Positions 12,058 to 18,529 of a stretch of 64,000 nucleotides of DNA are shown here, in pieces. Under the pieces are notes generated by a model. That model was given only the letters and a program-made list of their open reading frames with translations, had not been told where the DNA came from and searched no databases. Each line of letters begins with the position of its first letter. The stretch's first letter is position 1. The translations under genes and the position numbers were made by a program. The stretch is from Aquipseudomonas alcaligenes MRY13-0052 (GTDB lineage Bacteria > Pseudomonadota > Gammaproteobacteria > Pseudomonadales > Pseudomonadaceae): contig BATO01000012.1 in the NCBI GenBank assembly GCA_000474255.1, positions 1 to 64,000 on the forward strand. Direction: 5' to 3'.

Positions 12058-12264
12058 TCACCAGTGCCCGAACCAGGCGACCAGCAACGACAGGACACAG
12101 ACATACAGGGCACAGTCGAACAACGCTTCGTGCCAGATCCAGCGCGCCATGCCGACACGCTGCAGGGCCAGGCGCAACACGCCCGTCACCAGCAACGCCG
12201 CCAGCGCATACATCAGAATGGGGCTCAGCAACACGCCGCCCAGGGACCACTCACGCAAGCCCAT
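12058..12264 (-). CDS. DUF1656 (AaeX-like) small membrane protein
   Basis: 68 residues from the ATG at 12264 (MGLREWSLGG). Two hydrophobic spans (about residues 10-28 and 45-64) match the DUF1656/AaeX family, which is nearly always encoded between the FUSC pump and its HlyD adaptor. It overlaps the end of the FUSC gene by 14 bp and is 11 bp upstream of the adaptor start, so the three are translated from one message. Its role in the pump is not known. Confidence 0.88.
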   Translation of the reverse strand: MGLREWSLGGVLLSPILMYALAALLVTGVLRLALQRVGMARWIWHEALFDCALYVCVLSLLVAWFGHW

Positions 12265-18176: not shown

Positions 18177-18214
18177 TGAAGGTTTGGGCCATCACGGGAT
18201 AAAAATCGTGGACG

Positions 18215-18239
18215 AAAAAAAGGGCGACCGAAGTCGCCC
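18215..18239 (-). terminator. Terminator of the PhrS-like RNA
   Basis: On the minus strand GGGCGAC-TTCG-GTCGCCC is followed by seven T. The UUCG tetraloop makes it unusually stable. Confidence 0.92.
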
Positions 18240-18272
18240 GAGGTGCCTTGCGTGCCTGTGAACCTGGTGAAC

Positions 18273-18392
18273 TCAAGCCTTCTTGTTGCGCTTGTGGGAG
18301 TCCTTCCAGATGAAATATCCGAACCCTCCAAGGAAGGCGACCATCAGACCTACGGTCCCGATACCGGCGAGAACCACTACATCGATGAACAT
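18273..18392 (-). CDS. 39-residue single-span membrane peptide, CcoM-like, inside the PhrS-like RNA
   Basis: The reading frame encodes 39 residues starting MFIDVVVLAGIG and ending SHKRNKKA: one hydrophobic span (about residues 4-28), then a short basic cytoplasmic tail with FIWKDSHK. The Shine-Dalgarno AGAAGGAGG lies seven bases upstream and is among the strongest in the window, so translation is very likely. From memory it resembles CcoM, the approximately 37-residue accessory subunit of cbb3 cytochrome oxidase in P. stutzeri, and the short peptide reported inside PhrS. Control by ANR would fit a low-oxygen oxidase subunit. The CcoM assignment is inference. Confidence 0.75.
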   Translation of the reverse strand: MFIDVVVLAGIGTVGLMVAFLGGFGYFIWKDSHKRNKKA

Positions 18393-18465
18393 TTGAGTGC
18401 CTCCTTCTCTTGTGGCGTTCCGTGTTTCGATGGGTCAAAGGTAAGCCCGCACCGGGAAGGGGAAA

Positions 18466-18479
18466 TTGATCTGGATCAA
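18466..18479 (-). promoter_or_regulatory. ANR/FNR box 1 of the PhrS-like RNA
   Basis: TTGAT-CTGG-ATCAA is a perfect match to the FNR-family consensus TTGAT-N4-ATCAA. Centred at 18472.5, it would drive the minus-strand transcript as a class II activator site, implying induction under oxygen limitation. Confidence 0.88.
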
Positions 18480-18515
18480 TAGGCGCAGAGCCCCACCGGC
18501 AAGGCCGTTGGGGAA

Positions 18516-18529
18516 CTGATCCAGGTCAA
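18516..18529 (-). promoter_or_regulatory. Second, weaker FNR-type box
   Basis: CTGAT-CCAG-GTCAA matches the FNR-family consensus at 8 of 10 positions. It is centred exactly 50 bp upstream of box 1, close to five helical turns, so two ANR dimers could sit on the same face of the DNA. Confidence 0.5.

Follow-up and report, generated by a model that had tools for sequence, protein, structure and literature searches.

We find that the minus-strand RNA gene at positions 18215-18431 of the window, by which we mean the whole 64-kb stretch of DNA that was analysed, belongs to two known families, PhrS and CcoM, and that it is very probably a dual-function RNA: a monocistronic, ANR-controlled ccoM mRNA with a separate regulatory 3' element. 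PhrS, well known as a dual-function RNA of Pseudomonas aeruginosa, is induced when oxygen is low and activates pqsR via the upstream ORF uof. It encodes a conserved 37-aa peptide whose function was termed "elusive" in a 2021 review (PMC8395346). By homology, this peptide is the cbb3 oxidase subunit CcoM, an identity that accounts for its conservation as well as for its ANR control. What is new is that the PhrS and CcoM families are one gene, together with evolutionary evidence for separable functions. The two literatures, separate in the literature searched, are now joined: the PhrS papers found there do not name the ORF CcoM, whereas here the ORF is CcoM, and the CcoM papers found there treat the protein only as a subunit, whereas here the ccoM mRNA bears a conserved, putatively regulatory 3' element. 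Our search found no paper linking PhrS with CcoM; the original CcoM description (mBio 2016) lay outside that search, and an earlier mention is possible.

The initial annotation had proposed that a PhrS-like RNA of about 218 nt, resembling PhrS in size and neighbourhood, and a CcoM-like peptide share one transcript, and that each be aligned with its presumed relative. Both identities hold, by RF01673 and NF041600, with scores above the curated cut-offs. The Rfam PhrS model RF01673 covers window positions 18426-18213 (-) over its full length (model 1-212 of 212), scoring 172.3 bits (gathering score 37; E = 9e-43), and the 12-nt creg-like element of PhrS is present as well. Of 57 relatives, 35 scored above the cut-off of the covariance model. 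The AlkB-like gene upstream of PhrS on the same strand is 74% identical at the P. aeruginosa PA7 locus, and the small same-strand ORF beside PhrS also flanks PhrS in PA7 (61% identity). The locus thus shares with P. aeruginosa PhrS a full-length covariance match, an FNR/ANR box, an ORF of 37-39 codons, a 12-nt element before the terminator and an AlkB-like neighbour on the same strand; it differs in that P. aeruginosa PhrS targets pqsR, whereas the window genome lacks PqsR.

The 39-aa ORF product scores 74.8 bits against NCBIfam NF041600, the equivalog model for cytochrome c oxidase subunit CcoM (cut-off 40), and its residues 1-35 match chain N of 5DJQ, the solved Pseudomonas stutzeri cbb3 oxidase, in a phmmer search (E = 2e-15); Pfam holds no model for the peptide. 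With CcoM of the P. stutzeri oxidase it shares length, a single helix, sequence over 34 positions and the presence of ccoN in the genome, but the P. stutzeri protein is a physical subunit in 5DJQ, whereas the peptide described here is known from its sequence. PhrS of P. aeruginosa PA7 encodes a 37-aa CcoM MFIDEVVLAGILTVGLMVAFFGGVGYFIWKDSHSRKG, of exactly the published length of the PhrS peptide, and because this ORF too is CcoM, the identification extends to the PhrS peptide itself. CcoM-family ORFs also occur at the PhrS loci of P. protegens, P. guariconensis, P. benzenivorans, P. delhiensis and Stutzerimonas species. These named genomes, PA7 among them, were picked out by a 16S signature that is not specific to one species.

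The locus has a compact layout on the minus strand, and each element listed in the initial annotation was recovered: a perfect FNR/ANR box, a -10-like hexamer at class II spacing, a 39-codon gene with its ribosome-binding site, and a UUCG-loop terminator. The proximal box TTGATCCAGATCAA (18479-18466, read along the minus strand) is perfect, at a class II position of about -41.5, and a distance of 28.5-29.5 bp separates its centre from the -10-like TTACCTT (TTACCT/TACCTT; 18444-18438), with TAactT kept at the same spacing across the family. This places the predicted transcription start near 18431 (-). The predicted PhrS/ccoM transcript, supported by the Rfam match, runs from there to 18215 and measures about 217-219 nt. 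Within it lie the Shine-Dalgarno sequence AAGGAGG (18406-18400; of the GCAGGAGGC type conserved in the family), ccoM (18392-18273, ATG at 18392), which encodes the single-helix membrane peptide MFIDVVVLAGIGTVGLMVAFLGGFGYFIWKDSHKRNKKA supported by NF041600, 5DJQ chain N and dN/dS, the creg-like element GCACGCAAGGCA (18255-18244) and an intrinsic terminator, GGGCGAC-UUCG-GUCGCCC followed by T7 (18239-18215; stem 18239-18222).

Conservation was assessed in an alignment of 39 full-length family loci, from which two further loci (L030 and L160) were excluded beforehand. The proximal FNR box is perfect in 39/39 loci, and only 0.23 perfect boxes are expected by chance in the 64-kb window. A second site, TTGACCTGGATCAG (18516-18529 (-), one mismatch, predicted centre about -91.5), had been noted exactly 50 bp upstream and left unexplained; it is real, and the same spacing recurs in 35 of the 39 loci. 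The distal site reads TTGAn6TCAG in 33/39, so that the imperfect form is itself conserved, and the distal box is, as judged from this conservation, the upstream FNR site of a predicted tandem promoter. A perfect box at class II spacing leads us to predict ANR-dependent, hypoxia-induced transcription. Because the terminator scan expects 1.1 such sites per 2 kb by chance, the terminator call rests on conservation: its stem is kept across the family, with a mean column identity of 0.83 over the 39 loci. Single parts of the locus have modest chance value each, and it is the whole architecture that is conserved among family loci. Just 3' of the -10 element, acCCATCgaa (18425-18440 (-)) is also strongly conserved around the presumed start site, for reasons that are not obvious.

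Between the ccoM stop codon and the terminator, GCACGCAAGGCA is invariant at 12/12 nucleotides in all 39 loci, and the remaining 3'UTR has a mean identity of 0.50 and no invariant column. The two excluded loci carry GCATGCAAGGCT at the creg position (L030) and no creg-like element (L160, Halopseudomonas oceani). By its length, its position and its pairing with the PA7 pqsR leader, this element probably corresponds to the published 12-nt creg; the creg region gave the best of the scanned pairings with that leader, with 5+5 pairs around one mismatch and -21.8 kcal/mol. The combination of creg and terminator occurs in 118 of 148 Pseudomonadaceae genomes; in a set of 245 genomes from the order, it is confined to the ten that are Pseudomonadaceae. 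With PA7 PqsR as query, neither the window genome nor any of 13 others, close relatives included, yielded a homologue at E<=1e-30, so the conservation of creg extends to species that lack the target known for it. In the window genome and PA7, among the 12 genomes searched for a perfect complement of the 12-nt creg, only PhrS itself was found. Since PqsR is absent and no perfect creg partner exists outside the gene, any trans target of creg in the window genome is hypothetical.

The coding part and the 3' element are separable in evolution. Twenty-three Pseudomonadaceae genomes are without a CcoM match (three of them assigned by absence from the match list), and 15 of these, spanning five genera, retain creg and terminator; 14 of the 15 loci were inspected individually, and most of the 15 genomes also lack ccoN. 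None of the 13 genomes of the P. oryzihabitans genus (g6) has ccoN, and all 13 keep creg; 11 have no CcoM match, one of them (G349) with a visibly broken ORF, and the remaining two (G356, G369) keep a diverged CcoM ORF. Strains YY7 and KNF2016 of P. oryzihabitans have no ORF left at this locus. What persists there is a perfect FNR box with a TAGTCT -10, followed by a 5' hairpin, creg and the terminator, from which a non-coding RNA of about 68 nt is predicted. Genomes of four other genera (G028, G026, G018, G259) keep creg with ORF breaks or deletions of their own, and two of these (G018 and G259) still encode ccoN. The opposite state is less clear-cut. In the Halopseudomonas genus (g5), CcoM and ccoN are present in all 18 genomes and the exact creg pattern in none, which would give a simple double dissociation; this is softened by a two-mismatch creg variant, GCTCGCAAGGCC, before the terminator in one of the 18.

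If the RNA were a plain ccoM mRNA, its 3' 12-mer acting in mRNA stability, in RNase processing or in Hfq protection at the terminator without any trans target here, the absence of PqsR, the lack of a perfect complement other than creg itself in the window genome, and an overall fold no more stable than that of shuffled sequence (z = -0.93) would be readily understood. We nevertheless consider this improbable, as in five genera the element outlives a deleted or broken ORF, alongside the FNR box and the terminator, and because creg persists after ORF loss, a role in mRNA stability is left without an object.

The dual-function reading requires that the ORF be selected as a protein. Mean identity at ccoM codon positions 1, 2 and 3 is 0.82, 0.87 and 0.59, and dN/dS, taken from pairs with pS<0.6, is about 0.19 over 33 codons; this substitution pattern indicates that the ORF is under protein-level selection. 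We also weighed, and dismissed, a constrained RNA structure overlapping its codons: synonymous sites evolve as fast as those of ccoN (divergence 0.41 vs 0.36 in the same genomes), the fold is ordinary, and since synonymous divergence is not below that of ccoN, no extra RNA constraint is apparent within the ORF. A selected ORF and an invariant element surviving ORF loss, combined on one RNA, mark it at the level of sequence as a dual-function sRNA.

The distribution of CcoM follows that of the cbb3 oxidase. Across the order, CcoM was found in 66 of 245 genomes, and all 66 have a strong ccoN match. CcoM is present in 5/5 ccoN-positive vs 0/4 ccoN-negative genomes in one family (f37) and in 2/2 vs 0/7 in another (f26). 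Within the 148 Pseudomonadaceae, where matches weaker than 1e-20 were scored as absent, it occurs in 123/128 genomes with ccoN vs 2/20 without, the latter two keeping a diverged ORF; the Fisher p of 1e-16 is inflated, because the genomes are related and the counts are not independent. A further family (f6) includes three genomes (G098, G159, G210) in which ccoM and ccoN are no more than about 10 kb apart. The window genome (G000) encodes ccoN alongside ccoM, in three copies, two of them adjacent; a perfect FNR box precedes the first by about 100 bp. We infer that CcoM would assemble into cbb3 oxidase in this organism. Five Pseudomonadaceae genomes have ccoN and no CcoM match (G018, G259, G297, G305, G318). 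In G259 (locus L286) the CcoM ORF is cleanly deleted, and ccoN, the FNR box, the -10, creg and the terminator remain; because ccoN is retained after this deletion, CcoM appears not to be strictly needed, which suggests that it is dispensable in some backgrounds.

A purely regulatory RNA, with the ORF incidental or a translation-coupled regulator, would suit the description of PhrS as an sRNA and its CRISPR effect, reported in 2019 to be independent of its ORF (PMC6700203), but is very unlikely given the dN/dS and normal synonymous rate, the equivalog match to a crystallised subunit, the loss of the ORF together with ccoN, and the occurrence of ORF and FNR box across Pseudomonadales without creg.

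For the dual-function RNA we propose the following mechanism. Low oxygen would bring ANR to the tandem sites and turn the promoter on, the site at about -41.5 activating and that at about -91.5 probably tuning activation; in E. coli, model promoters with FNR sites in tandem are known. The transcript of about 217 nt would be translated to CcoM, a one-helix subunit that would join and stabilise cbb3 oxidases, whose genes likewise bear an ANR box. Through the 12-nt creg before the terminator, this transcript or its 3' end would also regulate other RNAs in trans, and the position of creg outside the ORF would permit pairing during or after translation.

The locus resembles the dual-function RNAs SgrS/SgrT and VcdRP, in which a single transcript combines a small ORF with a base-pairing element that is conserved independently of it (PMC8672173). 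Unlike theirs, its peptide is, by homology, a structural subunit of a respiratory enzyme, its coding part is apparently older than its regulatory part, and each part has been lost alone in some lineages. Outside Pseudomonadaceae, an FNR site (<=1 mismatch, <=220 nt upstream) precedes 35 of 37 readable CcoM loci, 27 of these sites being perfect, and creg directly follows the ORF in 0/37. The economical reading is that ccoM and its FNR control are old, present across Pseudomonadales, and that the regulatory tail was added or fixed later, within Pseudomonadaceae, each part then being losable without the other; this order of gain and loss is drawn without a species tree and does not fix the exact sequence of events.

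More broadly, the ccoM mRNA may have become a regulatory RNA, with creg fixed in Pseudomonadaceae, outliving the ORF in at least five genera, and possibly with repeated recruitment elsewhere; we regard the chances for and against this history as evenly balanced. It would imply that creg has an ancestral target other than pqsR and, if true, that short oxygen-controlled non-coding RNAs are left in the ORF-less genera. In family f37 (L181, L184, L188, L193 and L194, from three genera), the ccoM 3'UTR contains an invariant GTCAGGGGAGGGGG followed by an intrinsic terminator, and this block, at the place of creg, is possibly an independent regulatory 3' tail. In family f39, three loci from three genera (L168:561, L170:586, L173:597) share a conserved TGCGYTGAGTACCTTGCCT immediately ahead of the ccoM terminator; five more f39 loci, from two other genera, gave no match to its core. 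As at least two other families thus carry unrelated conserved 3' blocks, recruitment of the ccoM mRNA as an sRNA may have happened on more than one occasion.

The identity of PhrS and ccoM also bears on existing genetics: because a phrS deletion also removes an oxidase subunit, the phenotypes published for phrS knockouts may combine respiratory effects with those of the RNA. Genomes that have lost one half of the gene offer natural material for separating coding from RNA function. Elsewhere in the window, about 6 kb from PhrS, positions 12106-12240 (-) match the Rfam P18 sRNA with 66.1 bits against a cut-off of 60.
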